Below, piece by piece: positions 4,947-43,171 of a DNA stretch of 64,000 nucleotides; position 1 is the first letter of the stretch; each line of letters opens with the position of its first letter. The notes beneath the pieces are model-generated. The model searched no databases and was not told the origin of the DNA. It saw only the letters and a list, made by a program, of their open reading frames with translations. The DNA lies in contig CAIYNU010000020.1 of NCBI GenBank assembly GCA_903927615.1, forward strand, positions 1-64,000, in the 5' to 3' direction. The position numbers and the translations under genes are program-made. Source of the DNA: an uncultured Rhodospirillales bacterium. GTDB taxonomy: Bacteria; Pseudomonadota; Alphaproteobacteria; Azospirillales; Azospirillaceae.

Positions 4947-6947
4947 TCAAGCACTGGGCACAGATTGCTCTGATCGCTGGGATACATTGGGACTTCGGCC
5001 GTCAAGCCGCGCCACCGCCAAATGATATTGCATATCCTCGATCAGAATATGGCTGACCAGCCAACGGCTAAAAAAACCAATCAGGTCATTGTTAAGGCGA
5101 CCGGGCAATCCGTTCAAGAAGCGTTGTCGAAGAGTCGCCAGTTGTTCGGCCAGAAAAATGTGTTTAACCTGATGTTCGGCCAGCCGGAAGAATCCGATGC
5201 AGCGCATATGGCGTTCCTCCCGGGAAAAGTGTAAATCTGTAGAGTGAATCAGCTCATCAAGAACCGACTCCGCGACCGTCCCGTCGCCATGGGCATTGGC
5301 CACGGCAAGTTGATTGATCAGTTTGAAGAGGCGGCGATGGTCTTCATCCATTTGCGGATGGCCGACGCTGAGGTCCTGGGTCCAACGAATGGACACTTCC
5401 ACCAACCAATTCGCCATCACCGTCTGGAAGGCTTCCACCACCGCCGGATCGAACTGCCGCCCGGCGCCGTCGATGATGTACGCGATGGCATCTTCAAAGC
5501 GCCAAGCCGGTTTGAAGAGTTGTAGACTGGTCAATGTATCGAAAACATCGGCGACTGCCGCGATCCGGGCCGATAGGGGAATGTCTTCGCCCTTAAGGCG
5601 ATCCGGGTAGCCGCTACCGTCGAACCATTCATGATGTCTAAGGGCGATTTCCCAGCCCAGATCAAGATGGCGGTTGGCAATCGCCAAACGCCGGGCCTTG
5701 TCCAGCGCCTGTGCCCCCATCCGGGCATGCCTCTCCATCAGGACCCGTTCGTCACCGTTCAGGGCCCCGGTCTTGTTCAGAATATGATCGGGCACACCGA
5801 TCTTGCCGATGTCATGGAGCATGCTGGCCCAACCCATCGCATCCAGAAATGAATCGTCGATGCGGTCGGCGCAGACGCCACTTCGCTTCAGTTCGCGGGC
5901 GATTTCCGATGACAAGCGGGCGACCCGAAAGACGTGCTCACCAGCCTCAACCCCCCGTTGTTCTGCCAACTCGGCCAGAGTCACCACCGTTGCCTTGTTG
6001 GAGCGCCGCAATTCCAACAGACGATAGAAATTTTCCAGTGCCGTTGTCGTGATTGCACCAAATGAGTCGACAAGCTTCCGCATAGCCGAGGTCTCGGGCA
6101 GGCCGGCGGCGATCATCAGGGCGCCAGACCAGCGATCAACCAATTGAATAGGGATAATGGTTCGATCACGATCCAACATGGATTGCTGCCCGGCAATCAC
6201 CGCCTCAATCGCCGCAGCGTCTTCGGCACTTGCCGCCTGCTGTATGCTTTTGCTCAGGTCGCCCGCATAACGGCCGAAACCGCTGACCACGACAGTCTCG
6301 TCATCCAGCGTGACATGATCACGCTGACGGGCACAGAACAGCGCGTCGGCAACGCCCCCATCGCCAAACAATTCAAGCCATTGAACCAGTAACACTTTGA
6401 ACAACTCTGGTAAATCGCTTGCCCTGAACATCCCCACCGCGGCCTCAACCAGATGAGACAGGGCGGCGCTGGCATCCTCCTGCCTGCGCCGTTGCTGGTA
6501 GGCGCGCAGGGCCAGAACAACGCGGGCCGTCAACCGTTCTTCGGTCAGTTCGCCTTCAGCGTAACAATCATTGATGTCATAATCGGCAACAGCCCGCATA
6601 ACCGATACGGCACCGGTCTGCCGGCTGCGCAATATGAAGCGCACGGCATGATTGCCGAGCCCGTCGCGAACCGTGCGCACCAACCCCAGCCCGGGGTTGT
6701 TCGGCTCCATGACAACATCGAGCAAAATCAGGGCAATATCAGGAAATCGGCGAAGGATTGGTTCCGCATCAAGGGCGGATCGTGCCGCCATGACTTCGGC
6801 CGGCCGGCCATGGAAGCAACACCCCTCCAGCGCCAACCGGGTTGCCCGAAGAGCATCCCGGTTGTCATCGACCACCAGAACGCGCCACGGGGCAGCCCCC
6901 GCGTCAGGCCTGGTTTCGCCCTCAGCGTTGCTTCCCCTGGCGGTCAT
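4947..6947 (-). CDS. REC-DUF3369-HD-GYP-bacteriohemerythrin c-di-GMP phosphodiesterase
   Basis: This 666-aa fusion starts with a receiver domain (acidic pair D27-D28, phospho-acceptor D77 in LLDVVM), followed by a DUF3369 sensor-like region (about 150-320). The HD-GYP domain has H378-D379 (MLHDIGKIGVPD) and GYP at residues 446-448. A hemerythrin domain fills the C-terminus (about 520-640), with H537 in the MDEDHRRLF segment, an HFSREE helix, an HQVKH pair and HILIED. HD-GYP domains hydrolyse c-di-GMP using a metal pair, and bacteriohemerythrins bind O2 at a di-iron site. The protein should therefore lower c-di-GMP in response to phosphorylation and to oxygen or redox state. The start has GAGG just upstream. 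Its histidine kinase is not adjacent. Domain calls are firm; the regulatory logic is inferred. Confidence 0.9.
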   Translation of the reverse strand: MTARGSNAEGETRPDAGAAPWRVLVVDDNRDALRATRLALEGCCFHGRPAEVMAARSALDAEPILRRFPDIALILLDVVMEPNNPGLGLVRTVRDGLGNHAVRFILRSRQTGAVSVMRAVADYDINDCYAEGELTEERLTARVVLALRAYQQRRRQEDASAALSHLVEAAVGMFRASDLPELFKVLLVQWLELFGDGGVADALFCARQRDHVTLDDETVVVSGFGRYAGDLSKSIQQAASAEDAAAIEAVIAGQQSMLDRDRTIIPIQLVDRWSGALMIAAGLPETSAMRKLVDSFGAITTTALENFYRLLELRRSNKATVVTLAELAEQRGVEAGEHVFRVARLSSEIARELKRSGVCADRIDDSFLDAMGWASMLHDIGKIGVPDHILNKTGALNGDERVLMERHARMGAQALDKARRLAIANRHLDLGWEIALRHHEWFDGSGYPDRLKGEDIPLSARIAAVADVFDTLTSLQLFKPAWRFEDAIAYIIDGAGRQFDPAVVEAFQTVMANWLVEVSIRWTQDLSVGHPQMDEDHRRLFKLINQLAVANAHGDGTVAESVLDELIHSTDLHFSREERHMRCIGFFRLAEHQVKHIFLAEQLATLRQRFLNGLPGRLNNDLIGFFSRWLVSHILIEDMQYHLAVARLDGRSPNVSQRSEQSVPSA

Positions 6948-11330: not shown

Positions 11331-11777
11331 ATGTTATTTCTATGGGATGATTCCCTTACCATCGATGACGGGGACATTGACCGCGATCACAAATTTCTGT
11401 TCGCGCTGACCAACCGGATTCTATCAGCCGCCGAAATAAATGTTGATAAACAAGTCCTAGCAAAATTACTCAATGAGTACATCGACTATACCGCAATTCA
11501 TTTCGATCACGAAGAACGCCTGATGAACAAATTATCTTACCCGGATAAAGACAGCCATATTCTTGCCCATAATTCTTTCTTTGACCGTTTATGCCTGCTG
11601 AAAACCGCTTTCGAACGAAACGACGTCAGTATCCGGAACAAAATTAACGCTTTCTTTGCTACTTATGCCTTCAACCACATCGCCACCTGCGACCGCGCTT
11701 TGGCCGAGTGGTGTGGCCAGCACCGTTCCCACGACGGCGCCCTCCCCTGCCCCCCCCCTGACCGGGCCGCCGGATGA
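11331..11777 (+). CDS. Single-domain bacteriohemerythrin
   Basis: This 148-aa O2-binding di-iron protein shows the family pattern: the GDIDRDHKFLF helix, HFDHEERLM (HxxxE), a HxxxH-like pair in SHILAHNSFF, and NHIATCDRAL. Bacteriohemerythrins store, deliver or sense O2 in the cytoplasm. The first ~125 codons are clearly AT-richer than the flanking genes. The last ~20 residues (after the WCGQH segment) are GC-rich and Pro-rich and extend beyond the usual fold, suggesting replacement or read-through of the native end. AAGG precedes the ATG. It is divergent from nrdJ. Confidence 0.88.
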   Translation: MLFLWDDSLTIDDGDIDRDHKFLFALTNRILSAAEINVDKQVLAKLLNEYIDYTAIHFDHEERLMNKLSYPDKDSHILAHNSFFDRLCLLKTAFERNDVSIRNKINAFFATYAFNHIATCDRALAEWCGQHRSHDGALPCPPPDRAAG

Positions 11778-12033: not shown

Positions 12034-12642
12034 ATGAAATCAAGGGTACGATCACAACTGCCATCGATGATCGTTGCTGGACTATTGCTGGTCCAGGCCA
12101 TGATCGGGGTAACCGGTGCCCTCGCCGCCGAACAGGTGGCGATTCAGGCCTCGGTGGAGGGAAATGGGGTGGTCATCAACGCCACCGCCATCGTGAACGC
12201 CCCCTATAATGTGATCTGGCAAACCCTGACCGACTACGATCATCTGTCGGATTTCGTTCCCGGCATGGACCACAGTCAGGTGATCGGACGACACGGCACG
12301 GCGGTGACCGTCCAACAGTCCGGTCACGCCGGACTTTCGTTTCTCCGGTATCCGATCAACGTGGTCGTCGAATCGGACGAGCACCCGCCCTCCGCCATTA
12401 CCATCAGGGTTTTGAGTGGAAATCTCCGCCGACTCACCGGCGGCTACACCCTCGCGGCGGTCCCCGGCCAACCCCACCAATTCGTCCTGAGTTGGAACGG
12501 GCTGATCGAACCGGAGATCGCCCTTCCGGATTTCATCGCCGTCCCCGTTCTGAAATCCAACATCGAAGACCAATTTCTGGCCATGGTTCGGGAAATTGAA
12601 CGCAAGGCCGCCTTGCACGTTTCCGTTTTTGTCGAAAAGTAA
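12034..12642 (+). CDS. Exported SRPBCC (START-like) family protein
   Basis: This 202-aa protein has a signal peptide (hydrophobic core to about residue 32, ending GALAAEQ). A START/polyketide-cyclase-like domain follows: INATAIVNAPYNVIWQTLTD is the typical opening helix and strand, with DYDHLSDFVPGM after it. SRPBCC folds bind hydrophobic ligands in a deep cavity. A periplasmic member would be a lipid or small-molecule binder. It is the first of seven same-strand genes and sits 8 bp before the lipoprotein gene, so one transcript is likely. Ligand unknown. Confidence 0.8.
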   Translation: MKSRVRSQLPSMIVAGLLLVQAMIGVTGALAAEQVAIQASVEGNGVVINATAIVNAPYNVIWQTLTDYDHLSDFVPGMDHSQVIGRHGTAVTVQQSGHAGLSFLRYPINVVVESDEHPPSAITIRVLSGNLRRLTGGYTLAAVPGQPHQFVLSWNGLIEPEIALPDFIAVPVLKSNIEDQFLAMVREIERKAALHVSVFVEK

Positions 12643-12650
12643 GGGAACCC

Positions 12651-14174
12651 ATGACATCGAATTCCGTTCGTTCCGGTTGTCTTGCCGCAATCCTGGTGTC
12701 CCTTGGTTTGATGACCGGTTGCGCAAGCTCCGAACCCACGCTCGACTCGAAGGCGAATGCAGCATCCGCAACGGCCGAGGCCTGCACCCAATGGCTCGGC
12801 ACGCTTGACGAGGCGATCGACCGGGCGGGCGTCCGCGAGGCGGGGCCGACCCGCATCGCCGGCTTTCCCTATCTCCGGGTTGATCGCTTCCTGGCCTCCT
12901 TCGCCCCCGCCGTGACCGACCGGCCCAGCTTATTTGCCGACTGGATCGCGGGCCTGAGGGACCTTGATCACACGGCGCGCACCGTCGAATTGCGCAATCT
13001 GGGCGACGCCGGGATGCAATCCCTGGGCGTTCGCGATGCCACGGAAGCGGCGCAACGGACCGACACCTGCGCCGGACTCCTCCAACGCCATGACCTCGCC
13101 ACCCCCGAACAACGCCGACAGTTGGCGGACCACGCGCAGGTACCCGACGATTATCACACGGTCAACCGGGTCTTGGGGCTCTATCCGCTGACCAGCATCC
13201 CGTTCGCTCACGGCATTGAAAGCTGGCACCAGGAGGCCGCCGCGCAATTCATCCAGGCCTCAACGGTCACACCGGCCTCGGCGACCTCGGGCGATCCTCT
13301 CGCCCACCGTTTCGAGCCGGCCGGCCGGCCGGCCAGTGCCCGGGACATCGCCGCCCTGTTTGCCCGCACCCCGCCCGATGCTCTCGGCATTCCCCACTTC
13401 ACTGCCAGTGATCGCGCCCTCCTGTTGCAAACCTTCGCACCGGTGTTCGACATCGGCACCACCGGACCCGATGACCGGTTCGGCCCCCTGGTCTGGCGGG
13501 GCGGCCCCGCGCCGGAGGTTGATTCGCAACGGCCTGCGGCCTATCAGCGCCTCGCCTTGACCCGCTATCATGATCGCGTTCTGGTCCAACTGGTTTATAC
13601 GGTTTGGTTCCCGCAGCGCCCCCGCGACAAATGGCTCGATATGCTGTCGGGTCAGTTGGACGGCGTGGTGTTCCGGGTCACGCTGGATGCCCAGGGTCGC
13701 CCGCTGATCTATGACTCGATCCATCCGTGTGGTTGCTATCACATGTTCTTCCCGACCGCCCTGGCTGCCCTGAAGCCGGCGCCCGACGGTGAAGCGGAAT
13801 GGGCCTTCGTCCCGGCGACGGCGCCGACGCTGACGCCACCCCAGCGCATCACCATCCGCACCGAAAGCCGGACCCACTACGTCATCGGCATCGGTTCCAG
13901 CGATGGCCGGCAGGGCACGCCCTACCGTCTGATCGAGGACCAGGACTTGCGGACGCTGCCGACTCCGGACGGCGGCACCCGCAGTGTCTTTGGGCCCGAT
14001 GGCCTGGTTCCGGGCACCGAGCGTGGCGAGCGCCTGGTGTTCTGGCCCATGGGGATTTCCAGCGCCGGGGCCATGCGGGAATGGGGCCACCACGCCACGG
14101 CCTTTACCAGCGAGCGTCACTTTGACGATCCTGATCTGTTCGAGCGTCGTTTTTCCATTCCATCCATGCTGTGA
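12651..14174 (+). CDS. Lipoprotein of unknown function
   Basis: This 507-aa protein starts with a lipoprotein signal; the lipobox LMTGC places the lipidated Cys at residue 24. The mature part has no domain I can name. It contains conserved-looking segments such as RYHDRVLVQLVYTVWFPQRP, IHPCGCYHMFFPT and FWPMGISSAGAMREWGHHAT, with several His and two close Cys residues that could bind metal. It is spaced 8 bp after the SRPBCC gene and 12 bp before the DUF547 gene. Envelope localisation is firm; the function is unknown and probably shared with its operon partners. Confidence 0.8.
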   Translation: MTSNSVRSGCLAAILVSLGLMTGCASSEPTLDSKANAASATAEACTQWLGTLDEAIDRAGVREAGPTRIAGFPYLRVDRFLASFAPAVTDRPSLFADWIAGLRDLDHTARTVELRNLGDAGMQSLGVRDATEAAQRTDTCAGLLQRHDLATPEQRRQLADHAQVPDDYHTVNRVLGLYPLTSIPFAHGIESWHQEAAAQFIQASTVTPASATSGDPLAHRFEPAGRPASARDIAALFARTPPDALGIPHFTASDRALLLQTFAPVFDIGTTGPDDRFGPLVWRGGPAPEVDSQRPAAYQRLALTRYHDRVLVQLVYTVWFPQRPRDKWLDMLSGQLDGVVFRVTLDAQGRPLIYDSIHPCGCYHMFFPTALAALKPAPDGEAEWAFVPATAPTLTPPQRITIRTESRTHYVIGIGSSDGRQGTPYRLIEDQDLRTLPTPDGGTRSVFGPDGLVPGTERGERLVFWPMGISSAGAMREWGHHATAFTSERHFDDPDLFERRFSIPSML

Positions 14175-14186
14175 GGACATTGTTCC

Positions 14187-15005
14187 ATGAGACGACAGAT
14201 TCTCGGCGCCGTTCTGGTGCTATGGCTGGCAACGCCGGCATGGGCCGCGCCTTTTGACCAACAGCACACCGCCTGGGACACACTTTTAAAGGCCCATGTG
14301 GTGGTGGCGGCCGACGGGCATTCCTCGCGGGTCGATTACGCCGGCTTCAAGGCCGATCACGCCGCTCTGACCGCCTATCTGGCCGGATTATCCGCGGTCA
14401 CCGACAGCGCGTATACCGGTTGGACCGCGCCGCAACGCCTGGCCTTCCTGATCAATGCCTACAACGCCTTCACGGTCTCCCTGATCCTGACCCAATACCC
14501 CGATGTGAAATCCATCAAAGACCTGGGGGCCCTGTTCAGTTCGCCCTGGCGCAAGGTATTCTTTACGTTACGGGACCAACAACACAGTCTCGATGACATC
14601 GAGCACAGGATGATTCGGGCGCCCGACGCCTTCAACGAGCCGCGCATTCATTTTGCCGTGGTCTGTGCCTCGATCGGCTGCCCGATGCTGCGGAACGAAG
14701 CCTATGTCGCCGACCGGCTGGACGCCCAGCTTGAAGACGGCATGCGTCGTTTCCTGGCCGACCGCTCCCGCAATCGCTTCGACGCCGCTTCCGGCACTTT
14801 GCAAGTTTCGCGTCTGTTCGACTGGTACGACGGCGACTTCACCAAAGGCCTGCACGGCTTCAACTCGGTTGCCGGCACCCTGGCAAAATTTGCCGATGAG
14901 CTGGCCGACGATGCCGCCGCCCGGGCCGCGATCAAGGCCGGCACCGTGCCGATCACGTTTCTTGACTACAATTGGAATCTGAACGACACCGCCGCGGCTC
15001 CGTGA
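14187..15005 (+). CDS. Exported DUF547 protein
   Basis: This 272-aa protein has a signal peptide ending around TPAWAAPFD. It carries the DUF547 hallmark RLAFLINAYNAFTVSLIL, a further conserved CASIGCPMLRNEAY segment and the RLFDWYDGDF stretch near the end. DUF547 proteins are widespread periplasmic proteins with no established biochemical role, proposed by some to resemble papain-like folds. GAGGA precedes the ATG. In many genomes DUF547 genes sit next to TVP38/TMEM64 and flavin-reductase genes, as here; I recall this from general knowledge and could not check it. Confidence 0.88.
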   Translation: MRRQILGAVLVLWLATPAWAAPFDQQHTAWDTLLKAHVVVAADGHSSRVDYAGFKADHAALTAYLAGLSAVTDSAYTGWTAPQRLAFLINAYNAFTVSLILTQYPDVKSIKDLGALFSSPWRKVFFTLRDQQHSLDDIEHRMIRAPDAFNEPRIHFAVVCASIGCPMLRNEAYVADRLDAQLEDGMRRFLADRSRNRFDAASGTLQVSRLFDWYDGDFTKGLHGFNSVAGTLAKFADELADDAAARAAIKAGTVPITFLDYNWNLNDTAAAP

Positions 15006-15051
15006 CCCTGCCGTCCCGGGGTCTTCATCAGGTTGTGTACAAGAGGTTAGA

Positions 15052-15729
15052 ATGGCAATAAGACGGTATTTGCCGGTCATTCTTCTGCTGGCGCTGATTA
15101 TTGCGGCGTTGGTGTTCCGGCTCGACCACTATCTCAGCCTCGATACCCTGCGCACCAACCGCGCCGCCCTGCAAGCCTTCGTCGCCGCCAACGGCGCCTT
15201 GGGCGGTCTCGGCTTCCTGGCGCTTTACGCCGTCGTGGTCGCATTGTCGTTACCGGGCGGCGCCGTCATGACTCTCAGTGGCGGCTTCCTGTTCGGAACC
15301 TGGCTCGGTGGCGGTCTGAGCATGATCGGCGCCACCATCGGCGCCACCCTGCTGTTCATCACCGCACGATCCGCGGTCGGTGACGGCCTGCGGCGGCGGG
15401 GCGGACCATTCCTGGACCGCATGGCCGCCGGCTTCCAGCGCAATGCCTTCAACTATCTGCTGTTTTTGCGACTGGTGCCGGCCTTTCCGTTCTGGGCGGT
15501 CAATCTGGTGCCGGGCTTGCTGAATGTCGGCCTGGTTCCCTTCGTGGTGGCCACCGCCATCGGCATCATCCCCGGTTCTCTCGCCTATGCCGCGCTTGGG
15601 GCCGGTCTGGGGCAGGTGTTCGACAGCGGCGCGGCGGTCAGTCTGGCCGGCGTCTTCAGTCCGACGCTGCTGGCGGCGCTGATTGGGCTCGGTGTCCTGG
15701 CCCTGGTTCCGGTGGTGATCAGGAAATGA
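15052..15729 (+). CDS. TVP38/TMEM64 family (SNARE-associated, DedA-like) membrane protein
   Basis: This 225-aa integral membrane protein has an N-terminal anchor (LPVILLLALIIAALVF) followed by the family's re-entrant and helix pattern. It carries the two conserved blocks GGAVMTLSGGFLFG and LFLRLVPAFPFWAVN. Members of this superfamily (DedA, VTT domain) act in lipid scrambling or undecaprenyl-phosphate and phosphatidylethanolamine flipping, though the TVP38 branch is poorly defined. AGAGG precedes the ATG. Its stop overlaps the DUF3047 start (ATGA). Confidence 0.9.
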   Translation: MAIRRYLPVILLLALIIAALVFRLDHYLSLDTLRTNRAALQAFVAANGALGGLGFLALYAVVVALSLPGGAVMTLSGGFLFGTWLGGGLSMIGATIGATLLFITARSAVGDGLRRRGGPFLDRMAAGFQRNAFNYLLFLRLVPAFPFWAVNLVPGLLNVGLVPFVVATAIGIIPGSLAYAALGAGLGQVFDSGAAVSLAGVFSPTLLAALIGLGVLALVPVVIRK

Positions 15730-16391
15730 CCGGGGACGCCCGCCCGGGTTCCCGCAGGAGTCCGGGTCCCCGGGGTCCGGCATGGGCCTTCGCGGTGGTT
15801 CTGGTCAATCCCAGCCTGCCCATTGACCAGGGCTGGGAGCGTCATGATTATGTCGGACATTCGCACTTCATCAACACCGCGCTTGATGGCATCCCGGTCA
15901 TCGAAGCGACCCCGGACGGGGCATCGGGCCTTTATACCCGCGTCGATATCGATCCCCTGAGCTGTCCGACCGTCACCTGGCACTGGCGGTCCGACCGGCT
16001 GCAACCTTCGGCCGATTTGCGCAAAACCGAAACCGAAGACTTTTCCGGGGTGTTGTTTTTCGTATTCGGGGACCCCAGCTTGCTGAATCCCCACGTCCCG
16101 ACCCTGGCCTATGCCTGGACTGCCACCCCGGTTCCGGTCGGCAGTTTGATCCGCAACCCCCGCCATCCCCAGAGCCTGGTCACCATCAAGCTGGAAGGGA
16201 CTTCGACCGTCGGCACCTGGCGCGAAGAAATCCGCAATCTTCGCGCCGACTATCGGGCCGCCTTCGGTCATGAACCCCAAACGCGCCTGCACTATGTGGC
16301 ATTGTTCAGCGATGATGACCAAACCCACGAGGCCGCCGTCACCTATTACGGCGCGGTCGTGGCGTCAGACTGCAAGGCGAACGCCCAATGA
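15726..16391 (+). CDS. DUF3047 domain protein
   Basis: This 221-aa protein matches the DUF3047 pattern: VTWHWRSDRLQPSADLRKTE, the acidic-aromatic DFSGVLFFVFGDP segment and ALFSDDDQTHEAAVTYYGAV at the end. The family is probably an all-beta periplasmic sugar-lectin-like fold, function unknown. The start overlaps the TVP38 stop and the stop overlaps the radical SAM start, both ATGA, so expression is tightly coupled. The N-terminus has only a weak hydrophobic stretch (AWAFAVVLV), so export is uncertain. Confidence 0.82.
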   Translation: MTGDARPGSRRSPGPRGPAWAFAVVLVNPSLPIDQGWERHDYVGHSHFINTALDGIPVIEATPDGASGLYTRVDIDPLSCPTVTWHWRSDRLQPSADLRKTETEDFSGVLFFVFGDPSLLNPHVPTLAYAWTATPVPVGSLIRNPRHPQSLVTIKLEGTSTVGTWREEIRNLRADYRAAFGHEPQTRLHYVALFSDDDQTHEAAVTYYGAVVASDCKANAQ

Positions 16392-17341
16392 CGACGATCT
16401 TCTCACGACCACCCGGAAAATTTGAACATCCCACCGTCACCGCCAGCGGCGAAGCGCGGGCGGTGGTGCCCTTGCGACGGCTGGAAACCCTGTGGCTGAA
16501 CACCGGAACAGTCTGCAATATCACCTGCGATAATTGTTATATCCAATCCGGTCCCCACAACGACCGTCTGGCCTATCTGAGCCGGACCGAAGCGCGGCGG
16601 TTTCTGGACGAGGCCGCCCGGCACCGGGTCACGGAAATCGGCTTTACCGGCGGCGAGCCGTTCATGAACCCCGAGATCCTGGACATGGTCGAAGACAGCC
16701 TCGCGGCCGGTTTCCGGGTGCTGGTGCTGACCAATGCCATGCGGCCCATGCAACGGCTGGAGACGCCGCTGACCGCCTTGAACCGGCGATATCCGGGGCA
16801 ATTGACGTTGCGGGTCTCGCTCGACCATTACCAGGCCGAGGCCCACGAACGGTTGCGCGGCCAGCGGACCTGGCAACCCGCCATCGATGGCCTGACCTGG
16901 CTGGTCCGCGAGGGCTTCACGGTCGCGGTTGCCGCCCGGATGGTCTGGGGCCTGAGCGATGCGGTCATGCGCATCTGCTTCCGAGAGCTGTTTTCCATCC
17001 TGGATCTGGCCATTGACGCCCAGGACCCGACCCAACTGGTGTTGTTTCCCGAAATGAGGGATGACGCGGACGTCCCGGAAATCACCGAGCGTTGCTGGGA
17101 CATCCTCGGTAAAAGCCCGGATTCGGTGATGTGCGCCTCATCCCGCATGGTGGTCAAGCGCAAGGGCGCCGAGCACCCGGTGGTGCTGGCCTGCACCCTG
17201 ATTCCCTACGATGAGGCCTTCGAATTGGGCGCCACTCTGAGCGCGGCATCCGGCCCGGTGGCTTTGAAACACCGACACTGCGCCAGTTTCTGCGTTCTTG
17301 GCGGCGCCTCCTGCAATCCTCACGGAGATCAAACGGGATGA
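16388..17341 (+). CDS. Radical SAM protein of the envelope/redox operon
   Basis: This 317-aa enzyme has C43, C47 and C50 (CNITCDNC) for the SAM cluster and the GFTGGEPFMNPE motif that binds SAM. A Cys-rich C-terminus (HRHCASFCVLGGASC) probably holds an auxiliary cluster or substrate-binding thiols. That layout resembles small-molecule or peptide-modifying members rather than B12-type enzymes. It is linked by ATGA overlaps to DUF3047 upstream and the flavin reductase downstream. Substrate unknown; arsenic or sulfur chemistry is possible given the MerA-like partner, but nothing in the sequence proves it. Confidence 0.88.
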   Translation: MTTIFSRPPGKFEHPTVTASGEARAVVPLRRLETLWLNTGTVCNITCDNCYIQSGPHNDRLAYLSRTEARRFLDEAARHRVTEIGFTGGEPFMNPEILDMVEDSLAAGFRVLVLTNAMRPMQRLETPLTALNRRYPGQLTLRVSLDHYQAEAHERLRGQRTWQPAIDGLTWLVREGFTVAVAARMVWGLSDAVMRICFRELFSILDLAIDAQDPTQLVLFPEMRDDADVPEITERCWDILGKSPDSVMCASSRMVVKRKGAEHPVVLACTLIPYDEAFELGATLSAASGPVALKHRHCASFCVLGGASCNPHGDQTG

Positions 17342-18765
17342 GCCCTGTCCTCACCGCAGATATCTGCGTACTTGGCGCCGGTTCAGCCGGCTTGTCGATC
17401 GCCGCCGGCGCCGCCCAGATGGGCGCGCGAACCGTGCTGATCGAGTCTCATCGCATGGGCGGCGACTGTCTCAATACCGGTTGCGTACCATCGAAATCCC
17501 TGCTGGCCGCCGCCAAAGCCGCCGCCGCGGCCCGGGGCGGCCGCCCGTTCGGCGTTACCGGCAGCGAACCCGCCGTCGACTTCGCCGCGGTCAACCGCCG
17601 CGTCCACGCCGTCATCGCCGCCATTGCGCCCCACGATTCCGTCGAGCGGTTTACCGGTCTTGGATGCACCGTGATCCAGGCTCCGGGACACTTCGTGGAC
17701 GAACACACCGTCGAAGCCGGCGAACACCGCATCCGCGCCCGGCGTTTCGTCATCGCCACCGGCAGTCGGGCGGCGATCCCACCGATTCCCGGCCTGGATG
17801 GCGGGCCTTTTTTCACCAACGAAACCCTGTTCGACAATGCCGTTTTGCCGGCTCGCCTGGTGGTGATCGGCGCAGGTCCCATCGGTTGCGAAATGGCCCA
17901 GGCCCATCGCCGATTGGGGGCCGCGGTCACGGTGCTTGACCAGGGACCTGTGTTGCCCAGAGACGATCCCGAAGCCGCGGACGTGATCCGCCGGAGCTTC
18001 GCCCGGGACGACATCGCGTTGATCGAGGGCGTCAGCATCCGGCGCATCGAGCACACCGCGCAGGGTCCGGTGGCGGTGATCATCCAGGGAAACCAGGAAC
18101 GCCGGGTCGAAGGGTCACACCTTTTAATCGCCGCGGGACGCAAACCGAACCTGGAGACTCTGGGCCTGGACGCCGCCGGCATCCGTCACAGCCCCCGGGG
18201 CCTTGACGTCGATGCCCGCCTGCGCACCAGCAATCGGCGGGTTTTCGGCGCCGGCGATGTGATCGGCGGGTTTCAATTCACCCATCTGGCGGGCTACCAC
18301 GCGGGCATCGTGTTGCGCAACGCCCTGTTCCGGCTACCGGCCAAGGTGAACGTCCGGGCGTTGCCCTGGGTCACCTACACCGATCCCGAACTGGCTCAGG
18401 TCGGCCTGACCGAAGCCGCGGCCCGTGCCCAACACGGCGACGCCGTGCGCGTACTGCGCGCCGACTTCGCCGGCAACGACCGCGCAGTTGCCGATGACTC
18501 GGCAACGGGTTTCGTCAAGGCCATGGTCACGGCCAGGGGCGCGATTCTCGGCTGCACCATCGTAGGCCCACACGCCGGAGAGTTAATTCAGCCGTGGGTT
18601 CTCGCCATGTCGGCAAACCTCAAAGTCGGCGCCCTGGCCGGCATGATCGCACCCTATCCGACCCTGGGCGAAATCAACAAACGGGTTGCCGGCAGTTTCT
18701 ACACGCCCACCCTGTTCAGCCCACGAACCCGCGCCCTGGTCCGCTTCCTGGGGCGATTCGGCTGA
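17338..18765 (+). CDS. MerA-like FAD/NAD(P)-dependent disulfide oxidoreductase
   Basis: This 475-aa flavoprotein has the FAD loop LGAGSAGLS (residues 12-20) and the redox disulfide C44-C49 in GGDCLNTGCVPSKSLL. The second nucleotide-binding loop is VIGAGPIGCE, and AGDVIGG and a dimerisation domain follow. The C-terminal His-Pro-Thr-x-x-Glu motif of lipoamide dehydrogenase is replaced by YPTLGE, as in mercuric-reductase-like branches, so it is not Lpd. The N-terminal heavy-metal domain and C-terminal Cys pair of true MerA are absent. It closes the seven-gene operon and starts with an ATGA overlap. Its disulfide substrate is unknown. Confidence 0.9.
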   Translation: MSPVLTADICVLGAGSAGLSIAAGAAQMGARTVLIESHRMGGDCLNTGCVPSKSLLAAAKAAAAARGGRPFGVTGSEPAVDFAAVNRRVHAVIAAIAPHDSVERFTGLGCTVIQAPGHFVDEHTVEAGEHRIRARRFVIATGSRAAIPPIPGLDGGPFFTNETLFDNAVLPARLVVIGAGPIGCEMAQAHRRLGAAVTVLDQGPVLPRDDPEAADVIRRSFARDDIALIEGVSIRRIEHTAQGPVAVIIQGNQERRVEGSHLLIAAGRKPNLETLGLDAAGIRHSPRGLDVDARLRTSNRRVFGAGDVIGGFQFTHLAGYHAGIVLRNALFRLPAKVNVRALPWVTYTDPELAQVGLTEAAARAQHGDAVRVLRADFAGNDRAVADDSATGFVKAMVTARGAILGCTIVGPHAGELIQPWVLAMSANLKVGALAGMIAPYPTLGEINKRVAGSFYTPTLFSPRTRALVRFLGRFG

Positions 18766-18820: not shown

Positions 18821-18887
18821 CTGGGTTGAAACGGGCATGGGGTCTGTCTTGCCGTCATGCTCGTGACTCTTGTCATGGGGACACAGT

Positions 18888-19211
18888 ATGGACACCGCCC
18901 TGTCGCTGGCTGAGTTGACGCTGGCTCATTTTACGCCGACTGTGAACACCACCTTTGACGTTCCGTGGAACGATCAGGTGGTGAAGCTGACCCTGGTTCT
19001 GGCCGCTGCCCTGCCGTTCCGAGGCGGGCCGCCGAGCGCCAAGATGCGGACCGAACCGTTTCAACTCCAATTTCTCGAGTCCCAGTGGTCCCTACCCCAG
19101 CACACCCACCAACTGAGCCATCCAGTGCTGGGCACCCTGCCGATTTTCCTGGTCCCGATCGGTCCCAGTAAGGATCGGGCGGGATTTCTGTATCAGGCGG
19201 CCTTTACCTGA
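18888..19211 (+). CDS. DUF6916-like small protein
   Basis: This 107-aa protein opens with LTLAHFTPTVNTTFDV and ends with HPVLGTLPIFLVPIGP, the pattern of the DUF6916 family as I remember it, which is often found beside tail-collar genes. It has no signal peptide. I chose the ATG at 18888, with GGGGACA just upstream; an in-frame TTG at 18870 would add six unlikely residues. It is followed at once by a strong hairpin, which separates it from the first collar gene. The fold is probably beta-rich and the function is unknown. Confidence 0.7.
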   Translation: MDTALSLAELTLAHFTPTVNTTFDVPWNDQVVKLTLVLAAALPFRGGPPSAKMRTEPFQLQFLESQWSLPQHTHQLSHPVLGTLPIFLVPIGPSKDRAGFLYQAAFT

Positions 19212-19220
19212 TCGGCGCGT

Positions 19221-19257
19221 GGCGGGCGGGAGCGCGGCCACCGCGGCACCGCCCGCC
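19221..19257 (+). terminator. Strong hairpin after the DUF6916-like gene
   Basis: GGCGGGCGG (19221-19229) pairs perfectly with CCGCCCGCC (19249-19257), with an inner CGCGG/CCGCG stem around a 3-nt loop. There is no U-run. A perfect TATAAT follows at 19266-19271 but without a -35 at the right distance. The pair may act as a terminator or attenuator plus restart for the collar genes. Confidence 0.45.
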
Positions 19258-19400
19258 GTCCAACATATAATTGTATGCACCTCTTTCTACACACTGATTT
19301 AGCCGATGCGGAGTGGACAGTCACCCGTTTTTATGGTCCCTTCTTGTCGCTGGCCGGATGGTTCCGGCCGCAAGACGTGACCTTGAAGGCGGAGGAAGAC

Positions 19401-19916
19401 GTGACAGACAGTTTCCTCGGTGAAATTCGGATGTTCAGCTTCAATTGGGCGCCGGAAACGTGGGCGCTCTGCAATGGAACAATCCTACAGATAGCACAAA
19501 ATCAAGCCCTGTACTCCCTGATTGGCGCTTATTATGGGGGTGATAACAAAACAACGTTCGCGTTGCCCGATTTGCGTGGACGGGCAATCTCTGGCAGGGC
19601 GCCCAAGGACAAACTTGGAACAACCTATGGCACGGAGACGGTCACCCTCACCGCCAACACCGCGCCGCTCCACACCCATTTGGTCAGAGCCGCCGCCGCG
19701 CCGGCAACCGCCTATAATGTGGCTCATGGCGACGTGCTTTTTGCCGAGCCGCCGGCGGGCAGTAACATCTATGCCCCCTTCAGTGGGACACCCCAACCCA
19801 TCAATCCCGCGTCCGTGGCACACACTGGAGCCGGTTCGGCGCATAATAATATGCAGCCCTATGCCGTCGTCAATTTCTGCATCTGCACCCAGGGTGTCTA
19901 TCCGACCCGGCCGTGA
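19401..19916 (+). CDS. Phage tail-collar domain protein (MdpB type), copy 1
   Basis: This 171-aa protein has the collar signature: FLGEIRMFSFNWAPETWALC, then NQALYSLIGAYYGG, TTFALPDLRGR and a Thr/His-rich region (TAPLHTH), ending in a Cys/aromatic stretch, CICTQGVYPTRP. I chose the GTG at 19401, which follows GGAGGAAGAC, over frames starting further upstream that lack support. These 'microcystin-dependent protein B' relatives share the short tail-fibre collar fold but are often chromosomal in non-phage settings. It is the first of three paralogues. Function unknown. Confidence 0.88.
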   Translation: MTDSFLGEIRMFSFNWAPETWALCNGTILQIAQNQALYSLIGAYYGGDNKTTFALPDLRGRAISGRAPKDKLGTTYGTETVTLTANTAPLHTHLVRAAAAPATAYNVAHGDVLFAEPPAGSNIYAPFSGTPQPINPASVAHTGAGSAHNNMQPYAVVNFCICTQGVYPTRP

Positions 19917-19961
19917 TGGCAGAGGTGTTCACACGCTCATTGGATCAGGGAGCAGCAAGTC

Positions 19962-20492
19962 ATGTCTGACTATTTCGTGGGTGAAATTCGATTGTTCGCC
20001 GGCAACTATGCGCCGTTGAACTTTCTACCCTGTGACGGCCGAACGCTGTCGGTGTCTGATAATAACGCATTGTTCGCCCTTCTTGGGACTACCTGGGGCG
20101 GTGATGGCGTAAATACCTTCGCCATTCCAGATTTGCGCGGCCGGGTTCCGGTCGGCCAGGGAACCGGAACCGGGTTGAGTGCGCACACCCTCGGCCAGAC
20201 CGGCGGAACAGAGACCGTTACGCTGACCGTCGCCAACCTGCCGGTCCATACCCATCCCTGGAACACCCAGGCCTCCCCGGCAACCTCCAACGTGCCGACC
20301 AATACCCTGCTGGCACAACAGCCCGCCCAGACCGTCGGCTATGTCCCACAGGCGAAGGACCCCACGGCCTTCGCCTTCGCCAGCACGATGGTCGAAATTG
20401 CCGGTGAGAATCAACCCCATGACAATATAATGCCCAGTATCGCCCTCAGCTATATCATCTGTATTTTCGGGCTGTACCCCACAAGACCGTGA
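19962..20492 (+). CDS. Phage tail-collar domain protein (MdpB type), copy 2
   Basis: This 176-aa paralogue reads FVGEIRLFAGNYAPLNFLPC, NNALFALLGTTWGGDG, NTFAIPDLRGRVPVGQGTG, then the Thr-rich TVANLPVHTHPW region and the ending IFGLYPTRP. Unlike copy 1 it has the standard GQGTG glycine run. GGGAG lies upstream of the ATG. It is 45 bp after copy 1. There is no signal peptide, so if it reaches the surface it needs a dedicated exporter or release by lysis. Confidence 0.9.
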   Translation: MSDYFVGEIRLFAGNYAPLNFLPCDGRTLSVSDNNALFALLGTTWGGDGVNTFAIPDLRGRVPVGQGTGTGLSAHTLGQTGGTETVTLTVANLPVHTHPWNTQASPATSNVPTNTLLAQQPAQTVGYVPQAKDPTAFAFASTMVEIAGENQPHDNIMPSIALSYIICIFGLYPTRP

Positions 20493-20508
20493 ATGGAGGA
20501 AACGTACT

Positions 20509-21075
20509 ATGGCTGATGCATTTATTGGGGAAATCCGCGCCTTTTCCTTTGGTTGGGCGCCCTCTGACTGGATGATCTGCGACGGCTCGCTGGTCAGCCT
20601 GGCTCAGTATCAGGCACTCTACGCGGTGATTGGCACTACCTTTGGTGGCGACGGCAAAAGCACCTTTGGCCTGCCCAATCTGACCAGCCGCGCGCCGATC
20701 GGCTCAGGTCAGGGACCCGGTCTGTCTCGTCACATCATTGGCCAAACACTGGGCGAGCTAGCGGTCACCTTAAATGAAAACACGATGCCGGCCCACACTC
20801 ATCCACTCCTTGGCGGAACTGCCACCTCTGCGACCAGCGAAACGGGCATACCGGACGCCACGTCCTATGTCTCACGGTTTTCCAACACCTCAACGACCCC
20901 GGCAAAGGTGATTAACGCCTACGTCAACGCGGCCGTCACGCCGATCAATACCACCATGGCGCCAAGCATGCTCGGTCCGTATGGCGGCGGCCTTGGACAC
21001 GAAAACCGCCAACCGGTGCTGACCATGACGTTCTGCATCTGCATGATCGGTTGGTTCCCCGCACGGCAAGACTGA
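20509..21075 (+). CDS. Phage tail-collar domain protein (MdpB type), copy 3
   Basis: This 188-aa third paralogue reads FIGEIRAFSFGWAPSDWMIC, STFGLPNLTSRAPIGSGQGP and TMPAHTHPLLGG, ending CICMIGWFPARQD. TGGAGGA sits 8 bp before the ATG, the best ribosome site of the three. The spacing of 16 bp from copy 2 indicates one mRNA. The three copies differ in the central variable region, which fits subunits with distinct roles or a repertoire of binding surfaces. A strong hairpin follows. Confidence 0.9.
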   Translation: MADAFIGEIRAFSFGWAPSDWMICDGSLVSLAQYQALYAVIGTTFGGDGKSTFGLPNLTSRAPIGSGQGPGLSRHIIGQTLGELAVTLNENTMPAHTHPLLGGTATSATSETGIPDATSYVSRFSNTSTTPAKVINAYVNAAVTPINTTMAPSMLGPYGGGLGHENRQPVLTMTFCICMIGWFPARQD

Positions 21076-42088: not shown

Positions 42089-43171
42089 ATGTCAGTCGTC
42101 CGCCTCATTCTCAGCAAGATCGCCGCCGAACTGGACAATGTCTCGGCTCATGTGCGGATTCCCTTTGTCGCCAAAAGCCTGACCCAGGCCATGGTGGTGC
42201 GCCCGGTCCGGCTTCAGATTGAAACCACCAATGTCTGCAACGCCAACTGTGTGTTCTGCTGGTATCAGTATCAGGAACGCCCGACAGGAGTCATGGCTCA
42301 GACGCTTTATGACAAGGCTCTGGCCGATTTTGCCCTTATTGGCGGTGGAAGCCTGGATCTGACACCGTCCGCCGGCGATCCGTTGGTGGACCCCGGTATC
42401 ATCGGGCGCATCCGCGCCGCCCGACGGATTCCCGCGATCGGCGATCTCAGCCTGTACACCAACATGATCCTGGCCGACCGGCGCGGCATCGCCGATCTGG
42501 TGAGGAGCGGATTGACTCGCCTGACCGTCTCGGTTCCCGGCTTTGACGAGGAAACCTACCAGCGTGTCTACCGTTCGCCCCATTATCGCCGCATGTTGGC
42601 CAACGTGCTGGCGTTATTGGAAGAAAACCGCGGCGCGGGCAACCCGCTCGATATCAGGCTCGGTCTTCGCAGCGACCGCCCGCTCGCCGAGTTGGTGGCG
42701 TGCCCCGACATGCAGCGGGTGATTGAGATGCTGGGTTGGCACAAGGTCGAGGTCATCTACCGCTTCAAGAATTGGGGTGGACGCATCACCGGAACAGACC
42801 TGCTGCCGGGCATGCGCCTCAAGAGTCACAGCCGGTGGCGCCATCCGCGCCTCGGGCCCTGCATCCAACCTTATGTCGGCGCCATGGTGTTTTGGGATGG
42901 TGCCGTGGGGGCTTGTTCGTGCGTGGACGGCGACGCCCGCGCCTTAATTGTCGGCAATCTCCATCAGAACTCTTTGAAAGAAATCTGGCAGGGCGACCCA
43001 TTACGTGATTTCCGGGCTTCGTTCGGGCGTGAGTCCGAGCCCCAAACCTGCCGGAGCTGTAACGACTACACCAATCTATCGCAGATTCTCCGCCGTCACT
43101 TCCGGGCCGAGCGTGAAAGGCTTATGGCCGCCCCGACGTCTGCCGGGCAATGCCGCAACTGGCAAAAGTGA
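42089..43171 (+). CDS. Radical SAM/SPASM-type protein
   Basis: This 360-aa protein has C50, C54 and C57 (CNANCVFC) for the SAM cluster. Its Cys-rich C-terminus (LGPCIQPY, GACSCVDGD, TCRSCNDY) matches a SPASM-like auxiliary-cluster domain. SPASM proteins modify peptides, sugars or anaerobic enzymes. It sits alone on the plus strand between two minus-strand polysaccharide genes. Its last 50 bp overlap the 3' end of the convergent polymerase gene. Substrate unknown; within this locus a sugar- or peptide-modifying role is the simplest idea. Confidence 0.87.
   Translation: MSVVRLILSKIAAELDNVSAHVRIPFVAKSLTQAMVVRPVRLQIETTNVCNANCVFCWYQYQERPTGVMAQTLYDKALADFALIGGGSLDLTPSAGDPLVDPGIIGRIRAARRIPAIGDLSLYTNMILADRRGIADLVRSGLTRLTVSVPGFDEETYQRVYRSPHYRRMLANVLALLEENRGAGNPLDIRLGLRSDRPLAELVACPDMQRVIEMLGWHKVEVIYRFKNWGGRITGTDLLPGMRLKSHSRWRHPRLGPCIQPYVGAMVFWDGAVGACSCVDGDARALIVGNLHQNSLKEIWQGDPLRDFRASFGRESEPQTCRSCNDYTNLSQILRRHFRAERERLMAAPTSAGQCRNWQK

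Follow-up and report, generated by a model that had tools for sequence, protein, structure and literature searches.

A conserved gene block around an ArsS-like radical SAM protein and its possible place in an arsenosugar-type pathway

What could unite a radical SAM protein, a flavin reductase, a DedA-superfamily membrane protein and several exported proteins in one tightly packed operon? We asked this of seven genes in the window, by which we mean the whole 64-kb stretch of DNA analysed. Comparison of the proteins and their neighbourhoods makes it somewhat probable, in our judgement, that five of the genes belong to a pathway of arsenosugar type where the part of ArsS would be played by a distinct subfamily of radical SAM proteins.

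Five conserved genes in a seven-gene operon

A codon-position gene caller selected the same seven plus-strand open reading frames, spanning 12034–18765, as the preliminary description, and the coordinates, the gaps (8, 12 and 46 bases) and the three 4-base ATGA overlaps that follow were all confirmed (Table 1). Pfam bore out the family names. The claim that at least four products are exported, lipidated or membrane-bound also held, as we identified by eye either a signal peptide or a lipobox, which has Met at -3, in the SRPBCC protein, the lipoprotein and the DUF547 protein, and the VTT protein is a membrane protein. The signal peptide of the DUF3047 protein, as called, is weak. A tRNA and Rfam scan of the window gave zero matches. 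Promoter-like matches were at chance level and terminator-like matches numbered 11 versus 6.3 expected, and none were informative.

Table 1. Genes of the operon and other features noted in the window and at related loci (rSAM, the family of the operon's radical SAM protein)
Feature	Position	Strand	Assignment or remark
A, SRPBCC/Polyketide_cyc exported protein, 202 aa	12034..12642	+	Pfam; first gene of the operon
B, lipoprotein, 507 aa	12651..14174	+	No Pfam or NCBIfam family
C, DUF547 exported protein, conserved block	14187..15005	+	Pfam, E 6e-26
D, VTT/TVP38 (DedA superfamily) membrane protein, conserved block	15052..15729	+	Pfam VTT_dom, 6e-21
E, DUF3047 protein, conserved block	15726..16391	+	Pfam, 2e-28
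F, ArsS-like radical SAM protein (rSAM), conserved block	16388..17341	+	Pfam Radical_SAM, 4e-15
G, MerA-like flavin reductase, conserved block	17338..18765	+	Pfam Pyr_redox_2 and dimerisation, 1e-53
HD-domain/DUF3369 response regulator with C-terminal hemerythrin domain	4947-6947		
Stand-alone bacteriohemerythrin	11331-11777		Just upstream of the operon
DUF6916 protein with three tandem phage tail collar-domain proteins	18870-21075		Directly downstream; genes of a kind known from microcystin-dependent-protein-like clusters
Second radical SAM protein, SPASM domain	42089-43171		By eye in a polysaccharide gene region
TIGR04283 gene of the window's genome	L115:9111-15705		Downstream of a lipid A acyltransferase-like gene and two unassigned genes
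Extra radical SAM gene	L187:5601-6980		Immediately precedes the ArsS-like gene; weak similarity to TrsS and tetraether lipid synthase
PhnD-like binding protein, with PhnE/PhnC-type genes and phosphoesterase	L187:7935-11003		Near an rSAM cluster
PhnD-like binding protein	L117:10285-12197		Near a true ArsS cluster; also near that of L174
VTT gene directly after rSAM	L161:8586-10171		Complete 1.2 Mb alphaproteobacterial genome; TIGR04283 not found in this genome

In a congeneric sister genome, the DUF547, VTT, DUF3047, rSAM and MerA-like genes lie in the same order and encode proteins 75–82% identical to those of the window, and in the 20 kb around this block neither the SRPBCC protein nor the lipoprotein had a match. 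A lipoprotein relative (67% identity) is found on another contig of the sister genome, and further relatives, one of 42% identity (G031) and one partial (L014), each lie beside another gene. Near the other rSAM loci examined, no SRPBCC relative was found, and the only trace of the lipoprotein was the partial relative in L014, at a distance of 4 kb. In more distant Alphaproteobacteria (L011 and L012), the rSAM, MerA-like and VTT genes remain together. The five-gene block is conserved, and its grouping is not due to chance. Since the SRPBCC and lipoprotein genes are rarely near other rSAM copies, we treat them as probable local additions to the block.

The preliminary description had taken the seven genes as one unit. 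Dispersal in relatives, the outcome named there as refuting, was not seen for the five genes; the SRPBCC and lipoprotein genes do not accompany them, and we therefore rejected a single functional unit of all seven. The accompanying model, in which the SRPBCC protein and lipoprotein bind the product of the radical enzyme and the reductase recycles a thiol, is in keeping with the single strand and short gaps, but is barely tenable given that neither proposed ligand binder travels with the block and that the reductase carries YPT rather than HPT.

This reductase resembles mercuric reductase MerA (TIGR02053) in its fold, its redox CxxxxC motif and the Tyr at the His position, but it scores 350 of 454 bits and lacks the NmerA domain. 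Its C terminus (...ALVRFLGRFG) is also without the Hg(II)-binding cysteine pair (CC), and for this reason we rejected its identification as a mercuric reductase. Unlike glutathione- or lipoamide-type disulfide reductases, it is missing the catalytic His of the HPT motif, which is replaced by YPT in the window protein and in 14 out of 14 cluster homologues, including those of the ArsS clusters L117, L174 and L189, which share the signature of the window protein. Loss of this His makes ordinary disulfide reductase activity unlikely in the disulfide reductase family, so a thiol-recycling role is not favoured. The enzyme may reduce a metal(loid).

The VTT protein has a VTT domain in common with COG0398-type DedA proteins. 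According to one study, proteins of that type often occur as fusions with pyridine nucleotide-disulfide oxidoreductase domains and are essential in some Alphaproteobacteria (PMC10127716); the flavin disulfide reductase partner is shared, as a fusion there and as adjacent genes here, and the passages of the study consulted do not mention an arsenosugar link. For the DUF proteins, structure predictions were too poor to be of use (DUF547, pLDDT 60 from 3 sequences; DUF3047, pLDDT 36 from 2). A fold search with the DUF547 model returned nothing at E<=0.001, and a PDB sequence search with the DUF547 protein, the DUF3047 protein and the lipoprotein gave no informative relative.

The radical SAM family and its neighbours

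The best named family for the radical SAM protein was the Rv1681 family (NF049973), with 110 bits against a cut-off of 380 and a match confined to residues 34–187; we know of no function for this family. The match to the ArsS model (TIGR04167) reached 71 of the 300 bits set as its cut-off, over residues 30–179, and with a score below the cut-off we rejected the protein as ArsS proper. Nine cysteines (43, 47, 50, 236, 249, 269, 298, 302 and 309) are invariant in all 55 rSAM family sequences; the first three form the CxxxCxxC core, which ArsS shares. The C-terminal pattern MC...C...HC..C...SC also recalls ArsS (MC...YDC...HC..C...SSC), and in a global profile alignment the last five cysteines are in or close to register with those of ArsS (a local alignment covers the core alone), but this match is not specific, because SPASM/twitch-type domains generally carry such C-terminal cysteines. 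Unlike ArsS, the rSAM protein has an additional invariant cysteine (Cys236) and no selenocysteine.

Two loci, L015 and L011, carry both TIGR04282 and TIGR04283, glycosyltransferase families named for arsenosugars in NCBIfam, and we therefore retrieved loci around rSAM relatives. We take the word "arsenosugar" in these names to derive from genomic context, and TIGR04282 has the status of "hypothetical equivalog". L015, from a Cocleimonas metagenome-assembled genome, contains VTT, rSAM, TIGR04282, TIGR04283, MTA phosphorylase, MerA-like and DUF547 genes, and L011 ends in TIGR04283 and TIGR04282. One or both glycosyltransferases lay within ~8 kb of the rSAM relative in 13 of 40 retrieved loci (a non-random set, chiefly top matches with some others spread more widely), compared with a rough chance expectation of less than one such neighbour if each 4 Mb genome has one gene of this kind. 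The same loci included MerA-like (5), VTT (3), MTA phosphorylase (2) and ArsM-like (4) neighbours. In a 200-genome sample, all five gammaproteobacterial rSAM relatives adjoined at least one of these partners; L200 packs TIGR04283-ArsM-rSAM-VTT-MerA-like into 3.9 kb, and L204 has ArsM-rSAM-MTA phosphorylase. A Roseomonas plasmid (L187) has, inside 15 kb, TIGR04282, DUF547, a further radical SAM gene, rSAM, genes for a PhnDEC transporter and a phosphoesterase, and another copy of DUF547 grouped with the MerA-like and VTT genes. The PhnD-like binding proteins seen near rSAM and true ArsS clusters (Table 1) are possible importers of an oxyanion or a methylarsenical.

Across loci, VTT genes are present in seven rSAM clusters (L011, L012, L015, L143, L149, L187 and L200), and DUF547 accompanies TIGR04282 or TIGR04283 in L015, L131, L175, L178-L180, L187 and L190. 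In six other genomes, no more than 1 kb separates DUF3047 from TIGR04283, and DUF547 joins this pair in four loci. MTA phosphorylase is linked in L015, L142, L158 and L204 as well as in ArsS clusters L117 and L174; within the window's operon, Pfam found no MTA-phosphorylase-type gene. In the rSAM tree, the window's copy clusters with those of L006, L011, L012 and L149, all five near VTT and MerA-like genes, and in L149 an ArsM gene sits between rSAM and VTT.

We also observed a PLP-type sulfhydrylase-like neighbour at 14 rSAM loci outside the arsenosugar-type loci. In L133, L141, L144, L145, L153-L157, L160, L162 and others, rSAM comes before the sulfhydrylase-like gene, which is followed by genes resembling ApaG and GTP cyclohydrolase, all named from sequence alone.

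The same partners surround true ArsS, which adenosylates arsenic in arsenosugar synthesis (PMC12159101, PMC8552651). In two alphaproteobacterial genomes (L117 and L174), the cluster reads TIGR04282-VTT-MerA-like-ArsS-MTA phosphorylase-TIGR04283, with DUF3047 upstream, inside the cluster, in the second (G168). A Pseudanabaena galeata plasmid (L189) carries TVP38, mercuric reductase, ArsM, TVP38 and ArsS, and Hymenobacter (L190) carries DUF547-TIGR04283-ArsS. The window is like these canonical clusters in its VTT and MerA-like neighbours (L117, L174 and L189), its DUF3047 (L174) and its DUF547 (L190). Its genome also has the glycosyltransferases, but on other contigs: contig 17 has TIGR04283 (203 bits, cut-off 182) and contig 73 has a TIGR04282-like gene (133.4 bits, just below the cut-off of 134), both unlinked to the operon. 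The window differs in that its radical SAM protein is of another subfamily, with ~26% identity to ArsS over the core. Because the partners recur beside both rSAM and true ArsS, each of genes C to G is tied independently to the arsenosugar-type set. Membership of the block in an arsenosugar-type pathway is therefore likely on comparative grounds, and rSAM seems to stand in for ArsS, the sole enzyme known to join arsenic to a sugar.

An envelope redox or lipid-maintenance operon, made up of a DedA-type scramblase with a flavin reductase, the radical SAM protein having a separate housekeeping role, would explain the VTT-reductase pair that occurs without an rSAM gene in L007, and the COG0398 fusions and essentiality described above fit it as well. 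We consider it quite improbable, however, as VTT and MerA-like genes recur by both rSAM and true ArsS together with ArsM, MTA phosphorylase and TIGR04282/TIGR04283, and genes D-E-F-G overlap translationally in the window.

To our knowledge, descriptions of bacterial arsenosugars come mainly from cyanobacteria, and ArsM and ArsS are the only proteins to which a step has been assigned. A partial literature search found no paper joining arsenosugar with ArsS and ArsM or mentioning TIGR04283, none pairing DUF547 with DUF3047, and no description of the rSAM subfamily or of its link to these two families.

Co-occurrence, ArsM and the nature of the substrate

Association with the glycosyltransferase extended to whole genomes. 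Of 385 alphaproteobacterial genomes that formed a single sample, 114, from 55 families, had rSAM (called at E<1e-80) and 140 had TIGR04283 (E<=1e-36). The cultured, non-pathogenic Marinicauda pacifica is one rSAM carrier. TIGR04283 occurred in 105 out of 114 genomes with rSAM versus 35 out of 271 without it (odds ratio 79, P 5e-52, a value made optimistic by shared ancestry among genomes). For DUF3047 and rSAM, the odds ratio was 3. ArsS was found in two of the 385 genomes, neither with rSAM, which is too few to prove exclusion between the two.

The window's genome differs from the canonical clusters in another respect, as no ArsM was found in it (NF008823, E<=1e-30); dimethylarsenic would therefore need to come from outside the cell. 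ArsM-like genes were detected in 16 of 62 panel genomes at E<=1e-30 (9 at E<=1e-49), leaving 46 without; nearly all panel genomes carry rSAM, and one (G012) is of unchecked rSAM status. Of 70 controls chosen as lacking rSAM, four were positive (P 0.0015), and for strong matches alone the comparison was 9 versus 4 (P 0.14); at least one control (G050) has TIGR04283, and genome size was uncontrolled. That no ArsM was found here or in about three quarters of the panel is the chief weakness of the arsenosugar reading: carriers may import dimethylarsenic as the substrate, or the substrate may contain no arsenic. Uptake by ArsM-free carriers would fit the circulation of methylated arsenic between plankton and bacteria (PMC6426599).

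The other option, the same pathway acting on a non-arsenical nucleophile, would yield a 5-deoxyribosyl lipid or glycoside, with ArsM-linked versions as a side branch adapted to arsenic. The rarity of ArsM among carriers suits it, as do the sulfhydrylase-like gene that often adjoins rSAM and the presence of rSAM in so many alphaproteobacterial genomes, which is wide for an arsenic speciality. We nevertheless judge it rather unlikely. ArsM-like genes, whose products score 163–203 bits where the arsenite methyltransferase family has a cut-off of 263, lie inside at least six rSAM clusters (L147, L149, L159, L169, L200 and L204) on distant branches of the rSAM tree, and the rSAM proteins of three of these (L147, L149 and L169) are 56–58% identical to the window's copy, as are the others.

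A proposed pathway

From gene order, linkage, co-occurrence and conserved residues, which we observe directly, we infer an arsenosugar-type scheme whose every chemical step, arsenic substrate and direction of transport are predictions. The MerA-like flavoprotein would reduce a pentavalent methylated arsenical to its trivalent form, and the radical SAM protein would add the 5'-deoxyadenosyl group of SAM to this trivalent arsenical, forming a C-As bond. An MTA-phosphorylase-type enzyme could then remove adenine, after which the TIGR04282 and TIGR04283 glycosyltransferases would join glycerol or a lipid head group to the deoxyribosyl-arsenical. The lipid-linked product may cross the membrane by way of the VTT protein, and on the outside the exported DUF547 protein, and perhaps the DUF3047 protein, would act on it or bind it. 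The general idea of the preliminary description, a small molecule made by radical chemistry with a TVP38 membrane step and a redox helper, fits this scheme, but the arsenosugar-type context had been missed.

We put forward one wider claim tentatively, as a possibility: that a second widespread radical SAM class forms the arsenosugar C-As bond in ~30% of alphaproteobacterial genomes and some Gammaproteobacteria, that those without ArsM often import dimethylarsenic, and that DUF547, DUF3047, VTT and MerA-like proteins are its partners. Should arsenic prove not to be involved, the data would still indicate a widespread pathway of deoxyadenosyl transfer and glycosylation with another product. If the arsenic reading holds, synthesis of arsenosugar-like compounds may extend to a large group of ordinary bacteria, many heterotrophic Alphaproteobacteria would have a candidate C-As bond-forming enzyme, and four orphan families (DUF547, DUF3047, the VTT subfamily and the MerA-like reductase) would be placed in one pathway.
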